Shown: one piece after another, positions 21,326-61,698 of the stretch | How positions within the stretch are numbered: the first letter of the stretch is position 1 | How the letters are laid out: each line of letters begins with the position of its first letter | Source: Planctomycetota bacterium | GTDB taxonomy: Bacteria; Planctomycetota; OFTM77 | Reading direction: 5' to 3' | Assembly: GCA_029260795.1 (NCBI GenBank) | Contig: JAJDCO010000128.1 | Coordinates: forward strand, 1 to 64,000 | Length of the DNA stretch: 64,000 bases | Translations under genes and position numbers: made by a program | The notes under the pieces: generated by a model | What the model was told of the DNA's origin: nothing | Database searches by the model: none | What the model saw: only the letters and a program-made list of their open reading frames with translations

Positions 21326-24300
21326 TCAGTCTTCGCGAACGTTGCGATTCTGCCTGCGGATTCGGTCCCGCGCCTCGAGGCTCGCCGTCGAGCGGGCCGA
21401 GGAGGAAGCCCGTGCGGCACTCCTTGCGCGAGCCAAGCGACTCGTGTCGGTGGAGCGACGCTCAGCGCGACGTCCGATTTCCTTTCCGGGCTTCGGCTGC
21501 GCCTCATCCGCCTCTTCGACGCAGTCTTCCTCGACTTCCTCTTCGTCGTCGCAGCTCTCGTCGCGCTCTTCGCAATCGTCGTCGAGGAGCTCGAAGGCCT
21601 CAGACCAGGACTCATCGATCTCGAAGTCGTCCAGCAGGTTCTCGATCTCGATCTCGTGCCAATCGTGATCGCCGAGATCTTCGGGATGGCGGTCGAGGAT
21701 CTCCCGGATACCGGGCTGGTAAAGGGCGAGAGTTCGGTGCCAGGAAGCCATCAGGGCGTGCAGGTCTTCGGAGCGTTGGTCTCGGTAGGCTTCGAGCCAA
21801 TTGTCGTACTCGGCCACGTCCTCATCGAGGGCTTCCCGATACGAGTCGAAGTCGTCGAGAAGCTCACCCGAGAGCTCTTCGAAGGGCGGGATCAGTCGTT
21901 CGAACGCTCTCTGCCAGGCTTCCTGGAAGCGCGGCCCGGTGTCTAGCAGGTCGCCTTGCTCGAGCTGCTCGCGGAAGGAGTCACGGAGCGCCTCGAAGTC
22001 GTGGTCCAAGGCATCGAAGGAGTCTTCGAGGTCTCGCTCCAAGGAGTCGGCGAGGCGCTCGAAGGACTCGATCCAATCCTGTCGGTGGTCGTCGACATCT
22101 TCGAGCTGATCCTGCCAGTCACCGAGGCGCTCATCCCAATGATGATCGAATCGGTCCCAGGACTCTCTCAGAGAGCTCAGCTCCTCCTCGAGCCGACGGG
22201 CATTCTCCTCCTGCTGTGCGGACTGACCTTCGCCGTGCTCGTGACGAGCCTGAAACTCCTCAATGAGGCGATCCAGGTCACGGTGCTGCCGGGTCCACTC
22301 TCGCGAAAGCCGACGCTCTTCGAGACGCAGCTCGGCCTGTCGCTCACTCCAACGCCGCGCGAGCTGAGCTTGGCGACGCTGGAGATCCATCTGCTGACGC
22401 TGAGCGCGGCGCTGCGCTTCGCGCAGTCTCTGGTTCACGCGTCGCCAGGCGTCGCGCTGGAGCTTCGACAGGCGGCCGCGATCGAGCTCATGCGTGCCCA
22501 GATACCTGTCCAGGTTCGTGGCCGCCGTCAAGCCGACGACGGGCAACGGTGCCTCGAACCCCACCGAACCATCCTCGAGACGAACGATCACGCGGTTGGG
22601 CTTCAGCTCGACTCGGTTGTGAGCCACCGGTCGACCATCGATCGTCACCAAGAGCTCGCCCGATTGGATCGAGACCTTGAGCACCCCTTGAGGTGTCTCG
22701 ACGTGTACGAGCCACGGGAGCTTCTCGAGCGCGTCGACGGGACGCAGGCGAGAGGGCTCGTCATTCAGCAGCTTCTCGAGGCCCGCGAGCTGAATGGGCT
22801 CGTCCAGATCGGACCACGCCTCGCCGAGCTCCTCGAAGGGGAGGACGCCGGCCGGCGCATCGTCTCCGATCCTCATGGATGCCATTGCGGCTGTATTCGC
22901 CCAAGTGATGAGTCTCGACAGACTCGAGGTGGAAGCACGGACCGGGGCGGTCGAAGCTTCCGTCTCGGGTGCGTTGAGCTCGGGCGTGGTCTCGGTGGAC
23001 GCCTCGACTGCGCTCGGCGCCTTGCCCGGGATCATCGTCGCTGCCAGGGCGATCTGAGTCGCCCAGGCGCCGAGGAACGCACACGCGACCGCGAGCGCGC
23101 GGCCCCAGCGATGGCGGCGCGATGGAACGGATTCACGGTGAGCCAACATCTCGATCCTCCTGCGAAGCTGAGAAGGCGAACGCGACCACTGAAGGAGGCG
23201 GGGACCGAGGGCGCCGGTCGGCGTGGGCGCCGGACCATCGGCATAAGAGAGCAGCGCCAGGGCGTAGCTCCGGCGTCGTCCACTCTTCAACACGACGAGC
23301 AGATCGCACGAGAGCTCGCGGAGCCGGTCGAGCTGGCGCGAGATCCACCAAGAGACGGGGTGGAACCATGCGATGGTCGTCAGCACGGCCTGGAGAACGG
23401 CGATGCGGGCATCGCCTCGCTCGAGGTGCACGAGCTCATGGCGGAGAGCCCACTCGAGCGTCGCGGCATCCGAGACCGGGCCGGCCGGCACGAGCAGCAC
23501 CGGGCGCCGTACTCCACAGCACGCGGGCGACGTGATTCGATCGCCCGTGAGCAGAGACACTCGACGTCGCAGACGGGAGCCGCGGCTCACGCGACGCCAG
23601 ATGGCGAGTACCTCGGCGTCCGACACCGGGCGACACGATCGAACGAGGCGGCTCGTCCTCACCGTGCGAATCAAGTAGCCGACCGCCACCAGCGCGAGAC
23701 CGACGAGGTAAAGGATCGCGAACGGCCCGACCACCAGCGGCCCCCACTCACTCTCTCGAGCCCCTGCCTCCGAAGAGTCAGGTCGCTCCGGCCCGTGAGA
23801 GATCGATTCGGGACCCGCACTCGCAGTCGATGTGATCGGGCCATTCGCGTTCGAAAAAACGAGAGGCAGTTCGGCGACGAGCGCCGACCCCGTTTCTTGT
23901 GGAGCGATACGATCATCTTTCCGCATCGACTCGAATCGGCGGGAAACACGGTGGCGGCGGCTCGGCCGGGCCGCGCGCGACCTTTGCCCGGGATCGACGC
24001 GCCGTGACGTCTCGCGTGAGGCGCTCGGGGCCGCGGCCCCGACCACCGGACTCGACGCGAGTCGCTGCGCCTCGATCGGAGGCGCGATCGATTCCGTCAC
24101 CGGGATCGCTTCGGAGGTCGATTCCGGTTCGGCGAAAAGGCGAGGCGTCGACTCCGGCAGCCAGTGCGAGGCGCGCCCTTGAACGACGACCTGCGCGATC
24201 GGAAGGGCGAGACAACCCAGTAGGATCACGACCAGGAGCCGATAGCTCGCCAAGGGATCCCGACGCCAGGCGAGGCGCACGAGCCAGGCGAGGCCGCCGG

Positions 24301-24355
24301 CGGCCGTCAGTCCGACGATGGTGAGAAGGACCTGCCCGAGCAGTGCTCCGCTCAT
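21326..24355 (-). CDS. M56 (BlaR1-type) membrane metallopeptidase with long charged tail
   Basis: A 1009-residue integral membrane protein. Membrane segments lie near 5-28, 36-58, 207-230 and 418-440. The zinc peptidase motif HELVH is at 306-310, with a likely third ligand Glu347 in RELSCD. BlaR1-type proteins sense an outside signal and trigger loss of the paired BlaI repressor by proteolysis. Instead of a penicillin-binding sensor, this protein has a tail from 440 to the end: about 140 linker residues, then a beta-rich segment (about 505-640), then some 300 residues rich in Glu, Asp, Arg, Trp and Gln that should form long helices or coiled coil, ending in a Cys-containing acidic stretch. 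Its start overlaps the BlaI stop by 4 bases, so regulator and peptidase are coupled. Confidence 0.88.
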   Translation of the reverse strand: MSGALLGQVLLTIVGLTAAGGLAWLVRLAWRRDPLASYRLLVVILLGCLALPIAQVVVQGRASHWLPESTPRLFAEPESTSEAIPVTESIAPPIEAQRLASSPVVGAAAPSASRETSRRVDPGQRSRAARPSRRHRVSRRFESMRKDDRIAPQETGSALVAELPLVFSNANGPITSTASAGPESISHGPERPDSSEAGARESEWGPLVVGPFAILYLVGLALVAVGYLIRTVRTSRLVRSCRPVSDAEVLAIWRRVSRGSRLRRRVSLLTGDRITSPACCGVRRPVLLVPAGPVSDAATLEWALRHELVHLERGDARIAVLQAVLTTIAWFHPVSWWISRQLDRLRELSCDLLVVLKSGRRRSYALALLSYADGPAPTPTGALGPRLLQWSRSPSQLRRRIEMLAHRESVPSRRHRWGRALAVACAFLGAWATQIALAATMIPGKAPSAVEASTETTPELNAPETEASTAPVRASTSSLSRLITWANTAAMASMRIGDDAPAGVLPFEELGEAWSDLDEPIQLAGLEKLLNDEPSRLRPVDALEKLPWLVHVETPQGVLKVSIQSGELLVTIDGRPVAHNRVELKPNRVIVRLEDGSVGFEAPLPVVGLTAATNLDRYLGTHELDRGRLSKLQRDAWRRVNQRLREAQRRAQRQQMDLQRRQAQLARRWSERQAELRLEERRLSREWTRQHRDLDRLIEEFQARHEHGEGQSAQQEENARRLEEELSSLRESWDRFDHHWDERLGDWQDQLEDVDDHRQDWIESFERLADSLERDLEDSFDALDHDFEALRDSFREQLEQGDLLDTGPRFQEAWQRAFERLIPPFEELSGELLDDFDSYREALDEDVAEYDNWLEAYRDQRSEDLHALMASWHRTLALYQPGIREILDRHPEDLGDHDWHEIEIENLLDDFEIDESWSEAFELLDDDCEERDESCDDEEEVEEDCVEEADEAQPKPGKEIGRRAERRSTDTSRLARARSAARASSSARSTASLEARDRIRRQNRNVRED

Positions 24356-24768
24356 TGTTCCGCCTCCTCGTCGTCCAGCTGGTCTTCGATCAGGTCCTTG
24401 AGGCTGGCGAGCTCGTCCCGGCTGAGGCGTTCTTGCTCGACCAGATGAAGGAGCAACGGCTGAACGTGGCCGTCGAACAGCCGCTCGACCAGGTCACCGA
24501 CCATCGAGGTCGTGACCTCCTCCTGCGATCGAACGGATCGATAGTCGAAGGCTCGGCCTGTACCGCGGCGGCACTCGACGACGCCCTTGTCGCGGAGGAT
24601 GTTGAGCATCGTCTGGACGGTGTTGTAGGCGAGGGGCTTGCGCCGCCCCTCATTCAATCCGTCGACGACCGCCCGGACGGTGAGCGGCTCGGGGGCCGCC
24701 GCCCAGACGACGCGCATCACGGCGAGCTCCAGGTTGGTGAGCAGGGTCGTTCTTCTGCGCGTGGACAT
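24352..24768 (-). CDS. BlaI/MecI/CopY-family repressor
   Basis: A 138-residue winged-helix repressor starting MSTRRRTTLLTNLE. The DNA-binding domain covers residues 12-85 (LELAVMRVVWAAAP, LTVRAVVDGLN, AYNTVQTMLNILRDKGVV); the rest is the helical dimerisation tail, ending in an acidic DEEAEQ. Such repressors are inactivated when the partner M56 protease responds to its signal. The start is fixed by a GAGGAG element 5 bases upstream; six further residues are possible in the open frame but lack such a site. Two matching inverted repeats lie 45 and 88 bases upstream and are the probable operators. Confidence 0.93.
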   Translation of the reverse strand: MSTRRRTTLLTNLELAVMRVVWAAAPEPLTVRAVVDGLNEGRRKPLAYNTVQTMLNILRDKGVVECRRGTGRAFDYRSVRSQEEVTTSMVGDLVERLFDGHVQPLLLHLVEQERLSRDELASLKDLIEDQLDDEEAEQ

Positions 24769-54217: not shown

Positions 54218-54273
54218 TCACACGGAACGGCTCGTAAGCTGCTCTTCGGAATGCGGCCTGTGCCTTCCGAACG

Positions 54274-54314
54274 ACACGAGCCCCCGGCCGACGGCCGGGG
54301 GCTCGTGTGGTTTT
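54274..54314. terminator. 16-bp perfect terminator stem-loop
   Basis: The arms ACACGAGCCCCCGGCC (54274-54289) and GGCCGGGGGCTCGTGT (54293-54308) match at all 16 positions around a GAC loop and are followed by GGTTTT. It lies between the convergent lipoprotein and ABC-permease genes and is the strongest terminator in the window. Confidence 0.9.
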
Positions 54315-57030: not shown

Positions 57031-57771
57031 CTACTTTCCGACCCCCGGTTTCTTTCCTGGCCGCATTCGACGACGCGCCAACACCGGGATCGCGGCCCGT
57101 TTCTCGTCCTCCAGATGCTCCCACAAGATGCCGTCCGGTCGAGCAAACGCACGCCGACAGCGGATCAATCGCTCCGGCGTCGCAATCAAGTCCACCGACT
57201 GGTCGTGCGGCTCCATCGGGATCGTCCCCGCTCGAACCAGCTGACACTCGTGCACCAGCGTCACGACCGGTGTCTCCGCCTCGACCTTACCTGCTTCCCG
57301 CAGCAGCGCGAACTCGAGGTCGCTGTATCCACCGCCCTTGCCGAGTCGCGCTCCTCGGCGATCGACTCCCACGCAACCCGTCACGACCAGATCGATCGGC
57401 GCGACCTCGTCGAGAGTCACCGGTCTTCCCAGCTCGGCCGCACCCTGGATCGACGACGCCTTCCAAAGGGATCCTCTCGGCAGCCACTCCGGGTCGAGCT
57501 CCCAGAACGGGTGCTCATCGGCCAGCCGAGGAACGGCGACGTACACCCGCTTACCAGCTTCCAAAGCGGCTCGCCGGAGAGACCGCTGAGGGGAGTCCGG
57601 GTTGCACTTCAGAGTGCGCGCCGCGCCGAACTCGCGAGTGCGTACCAGGCGCTCGGCAGCGCGCTCGGCTCCGACGAAGTTGGGGATGCGCCCGACGATG
57701 CCGGGAAAGCGACCCGCGCCGGCCTCCCGTAGCCGGTCCCAGCAACGCTTTCTCAAAGTGCTCTTGTCCAT
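57031..57771 (-). CDS. 5-formyltetrahydrofolate cyclo-ligase-like protein (MTHFSD-type)
   Basis: A 246-residue cytoplasmic protein of the cyclo-ligase fold. Landmarks: KSTLRKRCWDRL near the N-terminus, VDLVVTGCVGVDRRGARLGKGGGYSDLEFALL (the conserved GKGGGYSD ATP/folate motif) near 130-155, and TLVHECQLV near 172. The GYSDLE rather than GYYDR form places it with the MTHFSD-like branch, whose activity on folate is less certain than for the short enzyme. The gene is divergent from the second BlaI/M56 operon, and the BlaI operator lies in its own promoter region, so it might share that control. Confidence 0.85.
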   Translation of the reverse strand: MDKSTLRKRCWDRLREAGAGRFPGIVGRIPNFVGAERAAERLVRTREFGAARTLKCNPDSPQRSLRRAALEAGKRVYVAVPRLADEHPFWELDPEWLPRGSLWKASSIQGAAELGRPVTLDEVAPIDLVVTGCVGVDRRGARLGKGGGYSDLEFALLREAGKVEAETPVVTLVHECQLVRAGTIPMEPHDQSVDLIATPERLIRCRRAFARPDGILWEHLEDEKRAAIPVLARRRMRPGKKPGVGK

Positions 57772-57833
57772 CGCCTCGAGTCCCGGCCAGCCACGGGATG
57801 ACCCGGAAAAAAGAGTCGAGCCAGCGCTTGCGA

Positions 57834-57876
57834 TTACCTACAGCTGTCGGCAACATATACCGACAGTTGTAGGTAA
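57834..57876 (+). promoter_or_regulatory. Large BlaI-type operator: 17-base arms
   Basis: TTACCTACAGCTGTCGG (57834-57850) and CCGACAGTTGTAGGTAA (57860-57876) match at 16 of 17 positions around a 9-base spacer. Each arm is itself a near-palindrome containing TACA-GCTGT or ACAGT-TGTA, the TACA/TGTA word of known BlaI/MecI boxes, so two repressor dimers could bind side by side. It ends 6 bases before the BlaI start codon, and lies 62-105 bases upstream of the divergent cyclo-ligase gene. BlaI as the binder is inferred from position. Confidence 0.85.
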
Positions 57877-57882
57877 AAAGAG

Positions 57883-58293
57883 ATGGCCATGGTTCCTTCC
57901 CAGAGACCGACCGCCTCGCTCACCGAGACCCAGCTCGAGATCCTCGATCTCGTCTGGTCCAACCCGGGCTGCACGATCTCGTTTCTTTGGAAGCAGCTTC
58001 AAGAGCGTCGGACGGTCGCCCGCAACACGATTCTCACCCAAGTGGGCCGGCTCGAGCAGTACGGCTGGCTCGAGCGGGAGCGCGTGGGTCGGTCCGACAC
58101 CTACCGCTGCACGGTACCGCGGCGTCGCGCCCAGAGCGAGCGGCTGGCCGGGCTGGTGGACGGGTTGTTCGAAGGCTCGCCGGCCCAGCTCGTCCAAACG
58201 CTGCTGGGCTCCCGCTCAGTCGGCGCCCAGGAGCTTGCTCGAGTGCGCGCCCTGGTCGAAGATGCGGAGCGGCGACTGAAGGAGAATGAGTGA
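57883..58293 (+). CDS. BlaI/MecI-family repressor
   Basis: A 136-residue repressor. The winged helix covers residues 13-85 (LTETQLEILDLVWSNPG, SFLWKQLQ, ARNTILTQVGRLEQYGWLER); the tail is helical (LAGLVDGLFEGSPAQLVQTLL). It regulates the M56/GATase1-like fusion encoded next, with which it overlaps by 4 bases (ATGA). A start two codons later (MVPSQ) is also possible. AAAAAGAG lies just upstream. The operator with 17-base arms sits immediately before the gene. Confidence 0.93.
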   Translation: MAMVPSQRPTASLTETQLEILDLVWSNPGCTISFLWKQLQERRTVARNTILTQVGRLEQYGWLERERVGRSDTYRCTVPRRRAQSERLAGLVDGLFEGSPAQLVQTLLGSRSVGAQELARVRALVEDAERRLKENE

Positions 58294-60254
58294 TGATGAC
58301 TCTCGAACGACTCGCCTTCGATCTCCTGATCCAGTCGACGCTGGTCGGCCTGGTCATCTTCCTGCTCGCTCGGGCACTTCCGCTCCGACGAGCGGCTCGC
58401 AGGCGCTGCTTGCTCTTGACCGGGCTCGTATCGTTCGCCCTTCTCCCGCTGCTCGCCGCGCTCCCGGACGCGTGGCGCATTCGTTGGACCGCCCCGACGC
58501 CGTGGCTCCAGCGCGGCGTTCTGGAGAGCCCTTCGGAATCGACGAGCACGGCGAGGACGTTCGTCGTCGACACCGCTCGAGGGCCGCGCGAGGAGAGGCC
58601 GACTGCTCGATCGACGATGGCGTCTTCACAGGATGTCGGGCCAGCTTTGGCCAAGACCGAATCGACGTCTCCCGCGGCCGTGCCGGTAGTGGCCGACTCC
58701 TTCACCTCGTTTACGGAGGTGCTGACGGTCGTCTGGATCTTGGGCAGCAGTTGGCTGCTGCTCCGCCTCGGCGCCGAAGCGCTCGCCTTGCGACGGCTGC
58801 AGGGAAGCGGCGATCCGGCGAGCGCTGAGGAGAGGGCCGCGCTCGCACGGGCGGCACGAAGCCTGGGTGTCCTGCGTCTTCCCGAGCTGCGGACGAGCGA
58901 GACGATCTCGCAGCCGATGGTGCTCGACATTCGACGCCCAATGATTCTCATCCCCACCGATCTGGCCGACGAGCTCCCAGCCGAAGGACTGCAGGACATC
59001 CTCGTCCACGAGCTGGCGCACCTTCGCCGCGGAGACCTCCTGACGGGTTGGCTTCAACGCCTCGTGTCCGCGATCTTGTGGCCGCAGCCGTTCGTGCATT
59101 GGCTCTCGCGAGAGATCGAGATCGCCCGCGAGGTCGTCTGCGACGACGACGTGATCCGGACCGGTGGCTCGCCGAGCCGCTACGCCCGAGCCTTGTTGAC
59201 GGTGGCCGAGCGCTTGCGCGGACCCCGGCTCTCCTCGCTGGTCGCGCTCGCGCTTCGTGGCGCCGGAGACCTCGAGCGCCGGACGCAATTGACGCTCGAC
59301 CCGGCCCGCGAGCGGCCGGAGCGCGTTGATCGCCGGGCTCGCCTGCTGGTCGGCTTCCCGTTGGTGCTGGCGGTCGGGCTCAGCTCGCTCTTCTGCAGCC
59401 GTCCTGATGAACCGCGATCCTCGGCCGAGAATGTCGGTGTTTTCAGAACCGAGAAGCGCGCGGAGACGGACGACGGTCTTCCGAAGCTGATGGAGACAGT
59501 CCGCCGGCGAGCGCTCTTCGTACAGCACGCGCCGGGTTGGGAGTACCGCTACCTCAAGAACCTCTTGCTGAGAGACTTCACTTGGGAGCATCCGGCCGGG
59601 ACGAAGAACGTGCTGTCGCTGCAGACGTGGCTGACGTCGGCCGACATCGGCTGGTCGCACGAGCACAGCGAAGACCTCGCGCCCCTGACCGATCTCCCCG
59701 AGGACTTGTCTTCTTTCGACCTGATCATTCTGGGAGACGTCGACGTTCCGACGCTGGGGTGGGAGTGGGAGAACGGTCTCGAGACGGTCGTCCGCTGGGT
59801 GCAATCGGGCGGCTCGCTGCTCATCCTCCCGGGTGCCCGCGACGGCCTCGCCGTCTACTCCGAAACTCCTCTCGCCCGCGCGCTGCCCATCGACCCGCTC
59901 GAGCGTCTGCCAGAGGACGGCACGCCGATCGAGGCCGCTCGCTGGACCGATGCAGGGCGAAAGAGCTCCTTGTATCCCGTCTGGGAACCGGAGGAAGACC
60001 GCTCGGTGCTGAAGACCTCCGACCTGGCTCGAGCGCCGACCGGCGTGGCAGGAAGACAGGCCGAGGTCCTCATCACCCAGAAGGTCCGCCCGGGCGACTC
60101 CCCCGAGCATGCGATCGTTGCGAGACGCCGCTGTGGAGGCGGCTCGATCGCCGTGATTGGTTTGGCCGAGACCTGGCGCCTGCGACACCCCAAGTCCCCG
60201 ATCCGCCACGACGACTTCTGGCACGCGACCATCGCCTGGGCGATGGGCGACTGA
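58290..60254 (+). CDS. M56 metallopeptidase fused to a GATase1-like domain
   Basis: A 654-residue membrane protein. Membrane segments near 12-30, 39-58, 143-163 and 351-369. The zinc motif is HELAH at 240-244, with third-ligand candidate Glu281 in AREVVCDDDV. The region outside after residue 375 is not a penicillin-binding sensor. Instead, residues 405-654 resemble the GATase1-like domains found in planctomycete VWA/GATase membrane proteins: ALFVQHAPGWEYRYLKNLLLRDF, SFDLIILGDVD, WVQSGGSLLILPGARD, TPLARALPI. No catalytic Cys of glutamine amidotransferases is visible at the GATase nucleophile elbow, so it is likely a ligand-binding sensor. It overlaps the BlaI gene by 4 bases. Confidence 0.88.
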   Translation: MMMTLERLAFDLLIQSTLVGLVIFLLARALPLRRAARRRCLLLTGLVSFALLPLLAALPDAWRIRWTAPTPWLQRGVLESPSESTSTARTFVVDTARGPREERPTARSTMASSQDVGPALAKTESTSPAAVPVVADSFTSFTEVLTVVWILGSSWLLLRLGAEALALRRLQGSGDPASAEERAALARAARSLGVLRLPELRTSETISQPMVLDIRRPMILIPTDLADELPAEGLQDILVHELAHLRRGDLLTGWLQRLVSAILWPQPFVHWLSREIEIAREVVCDDDVIRTGGSPSRYARALLTVAERLRGPRLSSLVALALRGAGDLERRTQLTLDPARERPERVDRRARLLVGFPLVLAVGLSSLFCSRPDEPRSSAENVGVFRTEKRAETDDGLPKLMETVRRRALFVQHAPGWEYRYLKNLLLRDFTWEHPAGTKNVLSLQTWLTSADIGWSHEHSEDLAPLTDLPEDLSSFDLIILGDVDVPTLGWEWENGLETVVRWVQSGGSLLILPGARDGLAVYSETPLARALPIDPLERLPEDGTPIEAARWTDAGRKSSLYPVWEPEEDRSVLKTSDLARAPTGVAGRQAEVLITQKVRPGDSPEHAIVARRRCGGGSIAVIGLAETWRLRHPKSPIRHDDFWHATIAWAMGD

Positions 60255-60501: not shown

Positions 60502-61698
60502 ATGTTGATGATTCTGACCCTCATTCTGACGTCGCTGACCGAGACGTCGACGATGTCCGAGCTTCAATTGAAGCTCACGTCGGGGCCGGTCGCACGCGAC
60601 TACAGCCCGGTTCGCGTCGTCGTCCCTCGCGAGATGTTGAAGGACGTTGCGCCGAATGGCCCCTGGTTCCTCGAGAGTGATCATGGGGTCCGTGAAGCTC
60701 AGGTCCTGTCGATGCCCGGTAGCGCACAGGTCGAGATCGTGTGGATCGAGACGGCGCTGCCCGCCAATGCCTCGCGTCAGTACACGCTCCGTTCGAGCAA
60801 GACAATCCACCCGACTCGCTTCCGCTTCGCCGAAGGACCCGGCTACCGATCTCTGCTCCATGGTGATCGACCCATCTATCGGCATGAGATCCGCTTCGAC
60901 CCGGCTGATCTCGAAACGACCAAGAAGACCTATCAGCATCTGTTCGGCATGAACGGTGAAGGCTTCATCACAAAGGGCGCCGGCGGCCAGCATCCGCATC
61001 ATCGAGGCGTGTTCGCCGGCTGGACGACCAAGGTCGGAGACCAGGCCTCCAACTTCTGGGTCTGCAACAACGGCGCCACGATCCGGCATCGTGAGGCACC
61101 GGCCGACGCTCGAAGCGCCGGTCCCGTCGTCGCCCGCGACGTCAGCCTCGAAGACTGGGTCGATGCCCAGGGTGAAACGGTCGTCCGAGAGCGCCGTGTG
61201 ACTGAGACCTGGAGGCCGGAGAGCGGACAACGCCTGCTCGACTTCAGCCTGACGCTCGAAGCTGCCGGCGGCCAGCCCGTGCTCCTCACGGGCGACCCCC
61301 ATCACGGTGGCTTCCAGGTCCGCGCCGTGCAGTCGATCGCCGAAGGAGGAGGCTCCGCCAAGTACCTCCGCCCCACCTCGGCGGCCGGTGGCAAGAACGA
61401 CATCTGGAGCGACTGCCCTTGGGTGGCAATGGACATCGAGGTACGAGGACACGGCTACCGCATCCTGCACCTCGATCACGCCCAGAACCCGCGACCCATG
61501 GTCTACTCGACGCGACCTTACGGGCGCTTCGGGTCCTACTTCGAAACGACCCTCGAGCCGGGCCGCCCGGTGGTCTTGCAGTACAGGCTCCTGCTCGTCG
61601 ATCACGCCACGGGGCCACGGCTCGAAGCCGCGCAGCTCGAAGCTCGTCATCGCGACTATCAGGATCCGGTGACCGTCGAGATTCTCGGATCCCGCTGA
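60502..61698 (+). CDS. DUF6807 (PmoA-like) protein
   Basis: A 398-residue secreted protein with a short N-terminal hydrophobic stretch (MLMILTLILTSL). The body matches the PmoA/DUF6807 family by SLLHGDRPIYRHEIRF, KGAGGQHPHHRGVFAGW near 170-185 (histidine-rich conserved motif), DPHHGGFQVRAVQ near 272 and SYFETTLEPGRPVVLQYRLLLVD near 355. Despite the PmoA name, most members are not methane monooxygenase subunits; they look like periplasmic proteins of unknown, probably sugar-related, function. Start at ATG 60502 is weakly supported by GGGTG; the next Met is two codons later. Confidence 0.88.
   Translation: MLMILTLILTSLTETSTMSELQLKLTSGPVARDYSPVRVVVPREMLKDVAPNGPWFLESDHGVREAQVLSMPGSAQVEIVWIETALPANASRQYTLRSSKTIHPTRFRFAEGPGYRSLLHGDRPIYRHEIRFDPADLETTKKTYQHLFGMNGEGFITKGAGGQHPHHRGVFAGWTTKVGDQASNFWVCNNGATIRHREAPADARSAGPVVARDVSLEDWVDAQGETVVRERRVTETWRPESGQRLLDFSLTLEAAGGQPVLLTGDPHHGGFQVRAVQSIAEGGGSAKYLRPTSAAGGKNDIWSDCPWVAMDIEVRGHGYRILHLDHAQNPRPMVYSTRPYGRFGSYFETTLEPGRPVVLQYRLLLVDHATGPRLEAAQLEARHRDYQDPVTVEILGSR

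Follow-up and report, generated by a model that had tools for sequence, protein, structure and literature searches.

The BlaI-M56 gene pair described here is probably an autoregulated proteolytic switch, in which a BlaR1-type membrane metalloprotease acts on a BlaI-family repressor and the signal is read by a GATase1-like domain at the C-terminus of the protease. The pair lies in a 64,000-nucleotide stretch of DNA (the window) from a planctomycete genome of 8.1 Mb, which is the sole member of its class among the genomes compared, and a second fusion of the same kind, G057:C111, occurs in a different class of the phylum. The blaI gene, the overlap and the HELAH motif of the protease had been noticed in a sequence-only reading, and the open reading frames and Pfam matches agree with it. 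The two genes overlap by 4 bases (GTGA) and the M56 gene starts with GTG. Against the curated cut-offs, BlaI reaches 77.4 bits for PF03965 (cut-off 22.6), and the M56 protein reaches 120.8 bits for PF05569 (cut-off 31), with residues 106-331 covered; a sequence search of BlaI against the PDB gave no match.

Table 1. Features of the BlaI-M56 locus (window coordinates)
Feature	Position	Strand	Basis and remarks
5-Formyltetrahydrofolate cyclo-ligase family gene, divergent	57031..57771	-	PF01812, E 8.3e-30
blaI-M56 operon promoter (putative, sigma-70-type), TTGCGA-17 bp-CAACAT	57828..57856	+	sequence and related promoters; weak consensus match
BlaI-type operator box 1, CCTACAGCTGTCGG	57837..57850		sequence; homologous boxes in G057
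BlaI-type operator box 2, CCGACAGTTGTAGG	57860..57873		centre 23 bp from box 1; ends 9 bp 5' of blaI start codon
BlaI/MecI-family winged-helix repressor, 136 aa	57883..58293	+	PF03965, E 1.4e-21; 50% identity to BlaI of the G057 fusion, sister in tree (support 100/97)
Membrane metalloprotease of the M56 family (BlaR1-type), 654 aa, ending in a GATase1-like domain	58290..60254	+	PF05569, E 8.5e-35; BlaR1 structures 8exp/8exs by sequence
TM1, residues 8-26	58311..58367	+	hydropathy
TM2, residues 40-58	58407..58463	+	hydropathy
TM3, residues 133-151	58686..58742	+	hydropathy
Zinc-protease core: HELAH (residues 240-244), Asp249, Glu281, Asp285	59007..59144	+	ungapped alignment to S. aureus BlaR1
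TM4, residues 352-370, leads into presumably extracytoplasmic domain	59343..59399	+	hydropathy
GATase1-like, non-catalytic C-terminal domain, presumed sensor (residues 400-654)	59487..60251	+	homology, profiles, predicted structure

The protease part carries the complete catalytic set of BlaR1. In an ungapped phmmer alignment to Staphylococcus aureus BlaR1 (8exp, E 3e-5), His240, His244, Asp249, Glu281 and Asp285 correspond to His201, His205, Asp210, Glu242 and Asp246, which in the staphylococcal protein bind zinc or act as accessory residues (PMC9834060). All of these protease-core residues are invariant in the G057 fusion. Hydropathy analysis placed four transmembrane helices at matching positions in both fusions, and the protease lies between the third and the fourth of them. 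The loop between TM1 and TM2 contains six Arg among 13 residues, which by the positive-inside rule indicates an N-out orientation and agrees with BlaR1, whose N- and C-termini both lie outside. The full-length structure model has a mean pLDDT of 62 overall and is poor across the M56 part, and the membrane topology therefore rests on hydropathy and analogy. By this analogy, the catalytic site would face the cytoplasm and the GATase1-like domain would be located outside the cell.

The identity of the C-terminal domain was not evident from family searches with the single protein: no Pfam family covers residues 400-654 in a scan of the whole M56 protein, and the domain alone scores 12.8 bits against PF07090, below the cut-off of 27. 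Among its aligned homologues, 57 of 65 match PF07090 at a loose threshold (best E 1.3e-8), and their joint profile detects 2gk3 (E 2e-12), 3soz (E 6e-12) and 3rht (E 5e-10) in the PDB. The AlphaFold model of the domain is confident (pLDDT 86.7, pTM 0.88), and its best structural matches are the same three proteins (Z 18.5-19.1, about 200 residues), led by 3rht with a Z of 19.1 over 211 residues and an rmsd of 3.3. ThuA-like proteins score lower (13-15), and Foldseek agrees on the GATase1-like matches. The GATase1-like fold that had been suspected for residues 400-654 is thus borne out by profiles and by structure prediction.

Related domains are widespread in the phylum. The window domain shares 33% identity with homologous VWA/GATase1-like proteins of planctomycetes (E 4e-18), and matches were found in 46 of the 59 genomes searched, including the source genome, and in 302 of 392 planctomycete genomes at E<=1e-9. 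Most of these relatives are GATase1-like regions of VWA-type membrane proteins of 750-900 aa. A stand-alone GATase1-like domain of 364 aa with a lipoprotein-type signal (LLVLLGCSAPP) and no M56 fusion is encoded at L110 1127-2221 (-). The family shares the motifs PRWEYRYLKN (PxWEYRYLKN), GD, GG and DETWRWR (WRxR), each of which directly follows a strand in the model. The strand-end side of GATase1-type folds is their usual ligand-binding edge. The window domain retains most of the motif residues, and deviates from conserved positions by Arg416 to Gly in PRWEY and by Asp626 to Ala in DETWRWR.

An enzymatic class I glutamine amidotransferase was considered and rejected because the nucleophile elbow lacks a cysteine. 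None of the positions in the 65 aligned sequences has a conserved Cys, the nucleophile position included, and the sole Cys of the window domain (residue 615) lies in a late strand. Judged from the model, the domain looks like a GATase1 fold relative without enzyme chemistry that is suited to binding, and its location after TM4 suggests that it is the sensor. What it binds could also be a protein. A rather unlikely alternative holds that it serves as a docking module for an envelope partner and does not sense a small molecule, as in the VWA/GATase1 proteins from which it apparently derives, and that the switch reports the state of an envelope complex. The abundance of the same domain in VWA-type membrane proteins and the missing catalytic Cys would fit such a role, as would structural relatives among non-enzymatic assembly subunits, including an oligosaccharyltransferase subunit and IFT52; yet the conserved motifs lie together along the edge of the fold's pocket, and no conserved partner gene accompanies the two fusions.

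The second fusion was found by a full-length search of 392 genomes of the phylum. It aligns over residues 4-651 with 28% identity, contains HECAH in place of HELAH, and has its own BlaI gene upstream. The C-termini of the two fusions are about 30% identical and keep the motifs, and their repressors are closely related (Table 1). An assembly artefact, or a mis-called fusion of neighbouring genes, might be suspected from the finding of just two fusions among 392 planctomycete genomes at high score, but the M56 gene is one uninterrupted frame in the interior of a 197-kb contig, and the diverged second fusion with its own BlaI in another class makes an artefact scarcely credible; this explanation was therefore rejected and the fusion is regarded as genuine.

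The history of the two fusions is reflected differently in their parts. Whereas the repressors are sisters with strong support, the C-terminal domains group weakly and on long branches (77/85), and the two fusions stay apart in the M56 tree, where a single clade is nonetheless not rejected (p-AU 0.198). A single old origin of the fusion is the simplest reading. The window C-terminal domain evolves fast, with a branch length of 2.66 compared to a median of 0.24. Together with the two changed positions, Arg416 and Asp626, this could suggest that the domain is structural or vestigial and that the signal enters elsewhere, e.g., through the TM2-TM3 loop. Such a non-sensory role is quite improbable, since the domain retains a confident fold together with most of the motif residues and both fusions have kept the motifs at this low C-terminal identity. 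The sensory role of the GATase1-like domain thus remains the preferred reading.

The search for other such M56 proteins and their neighbours, which had been proposed along with the domain, yielded this one additional fusion and no shared neighbour beyond blaI, the sole gene common to both loci. No further fusion was detected when the 392 genomes of the phylum were searched at high score, nor among 398 genomes from another class and 23 from a third at E<=1e-42, nor among the contigs of 80 relatives; a first contig scan with the single protein as query had given no match. Likewise, no fusion was seen beside 15 related BlaI genes, of which at least those at L211, L212 and L224 have downstream sequences that end before the C-terminus. 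Because these thresholds are high and diverged fusions could be missed, two fusions are a lower bound. L211 (1511-2479), from the class of the second fusion, encodes a BlaI 50% identical to that of the window behind a double CCTAC...GTAGG box; its downstream gene ends with the contig, and another frame there resembles a prenyltransferase/squalene-cyclase repeat (AIAWLVENQREDGSW).

Upstream of blaI, an inverted repeat (57834-57850/57860-57876) pairs 16 of 17 bases around a 9-nt loop. Arms of this strength occur at two places in the 64-kb window and in none of 20 block shuffles; the other place (54270-54312, also 16/17 paired) adjoins the 3' end of an ABC-2 permease gene and is possibly a terminator. 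The repeat had been interpreted as a very long operator. The length and pairing of its arms stand, but it consists of two 14-bp near-palindromes, CCTACAGCTGTCGG and CCGACAGTTGTAGG, each a BlaI-type box of ordinary size, and an unusually long operator was therefore rejected in favour of a double box as in related loci. The two palindromic ACA-N2-TGT boxes at the blaI promoter are conserved in relatives: at the G057 locus they read CCTACAACCGTAGG and CCTACACCTGTAGG, with 22 bp from one to the other, and a CTAC...GTAG-type pair with a spacing of 20-24 bp is common to related BlaI-M56 loci.

Box 1 occupies the spacer between the -35 and -10 elements of the putative blaI-M56 promoter, as it does in L046 (TTGACA-17-CATTAT) and L052 (TTGACA-17-CACCAT). 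The same placement was read by eye for G057 (TTGCAT-17-AATAAT) and L051 (TTGGAT-17-TATGAT) by using the TTG just upstream of the nearer one that automated promoter placement chose, and the statement applies to loci in which hexamers resembling -35 (TTG) and -10 can be fitted with 17 bp between them. Read from the sequence, a double box in the spacer is a classical repressor placement, which explains the inverted repeat without anything unusual. Throughout the genome, the exact operator pattern matches the two window boxes and one further site, about the level expected by chance, and no remote regulon is thus visible. This site (L066 1501-1514) is a perfect palindrome, CCGACACGTGTCGG, and is followed 18 bp later by the start codon of a flagellin gene. 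A genome scan allowing up to one mismatch (<=1) returned 34 sites versus 56 for the reversed control and hence no enrichment.

These features suggest how the switch may operate. When no signal is present, BlaI dimers on the two boxes would cover both the start region of their own promoter and the spacer between its -35 and -10 elements. By analogy with BlaR1, the M56 protein would act as a four-helix membrane zinc protease with its active site towards the cytoplasm, and the GATase1-like domain would lie outside the cell. A ligand or a protein partner that binds to this non-catalytic domain would activate the protease, which would then cleave BlaI and derepress the operon, and perhaps the divergent folate gene as well. 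BlaI control of the folate cyclo-ligase gene is possible; the gene is absent beside the G057 fusion, and so its control is a possibility and not an established part of the switch. Downstream of the M56 gene, after a gap of 247 bp, a DUF6807 gene (PF14100, E 5.9e-37; 60502-61698, +) is found, which is likewise not conserved beside the second fusion.

The source genome contains 12 M56 and 12 BlaI genes, which are adjacent one to one by coordinates. A penicillin-binding domain was not detected on any of the 12 M56 proteins. The Pfam scan of ten of the eleven other proteins revealed LysM plus secretin-N on one, TPR on another and no convincing C-terminal domain on the rest, while the eleventh is a 384-aa frame with a protease match to about residue 307 and is too short for a penicillin-binding domain. 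In relatives of the window BlaI clade, the C-termini appear by eye to be carboxypeptidase-regulatory-like, PDZ-like or beta-propeller-like. This variety indicates that planctomycete M56 proteins have commonly exchanged their C-terminal domains. The view that the sensor had been replaced as an exception therefore does not hold, as C-termini other than penicillin-binding domains are the rule, and the GATase1-like domain appears to be one rare choice, with two cases in the sampled genomes. The window itself carries a second BlaI-M56 pair (21329-24741, -); its M56 frame has 1055 aa, Pfam recognises no C-terminal domain on it, and a palindrome of the CCTA...TTTTTAGG type is repeated upstream of its BlaI gene.

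The twelve pairs with their differing C-termini possibly form an array of protease switches with multiple inputs. It is a speculative extension, and an unlikely one as a whole, that the window switch uses its VWA/GATase1-derived domain to monitor envelope machinery or the ligand of this machinery, and that the pairs are a plug-in array of paralogous sensors comparable to two-component systems. As one of twelve BlaI/protease pairs in its genome, the locus is a real but modest variation on the known BlaI/BlaR1 switch. It nevertheless suggests that the BlaR1 protease is a signalling module of general use whose sensors can be exchanged, beyond its role in resistance, and provides a concrete candidate sensor; the fold is known, and its ligand can be looked for. 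Such a ligand, if found, would also hint at what the common, uncharacterised VWA/GATase1-like proteins of planctomycetes bind.

An incomplete literature search retrieved structure and review papers on BlaR1 and none on GATase1-like M56 proteins. The stand-alone GATase1-like proteins 3rht (from Planctomyces limnophilus), 2gk3 and 3soz have the same fold as the window domain, but are single-domain proteins with 17-20% identity to it. The planctomycete VWA/GATase1-like membrane proteins share the homologous domain (PF07090/DUF7408 region) and its WEYRYLKN motif, but have an N-terminal TM/VWA part and no protease. The other planctomycete BlaI-M56 pairs (the eleven of the source genome, L046, L047, L048, L051 and others) show the same gene order, and in a related subset the double operator likewise lies in the spacer of the promoter, whereas their C-termini are of other kinds.

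The closest functional model is provided by BlaI-BlaR1 and MecI-MecR1 of Staphylococcus and Bacillus. They share with the window system the BlaI-family repressor, the M56 zinc protease with its catalytic and accessory residues, its four transmembrane helices and its C-terminal domain after TM4, and BlaI boxes at the promoter. In the beta-lactam sensors BlaR1 and MecR1, the C-terminal domain is a penicillin-binding (class-D-like) domain; in the window protein, a GATase1-like domain takes its place, and Pfam transpeptidase has no match there. The NCBIfam blaR1 model gives a score of 65 against a cut-off of 400 and matches residues 123-306 alone, and no beta-lactamase or PBP gene accompanies the pair. 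The fold, the genuine fusion and the BlaR1 catalytic set make a BlaR1-style switch with a non-beta-lactam input, as originally proposed, the best reading, with ligand binding as its presumed trigger. The window system would thus work like BlaI-BlaR1, yet it is not a BlaR1 beta-lactam sensor, because the sensor domain that defines the latter is absent.
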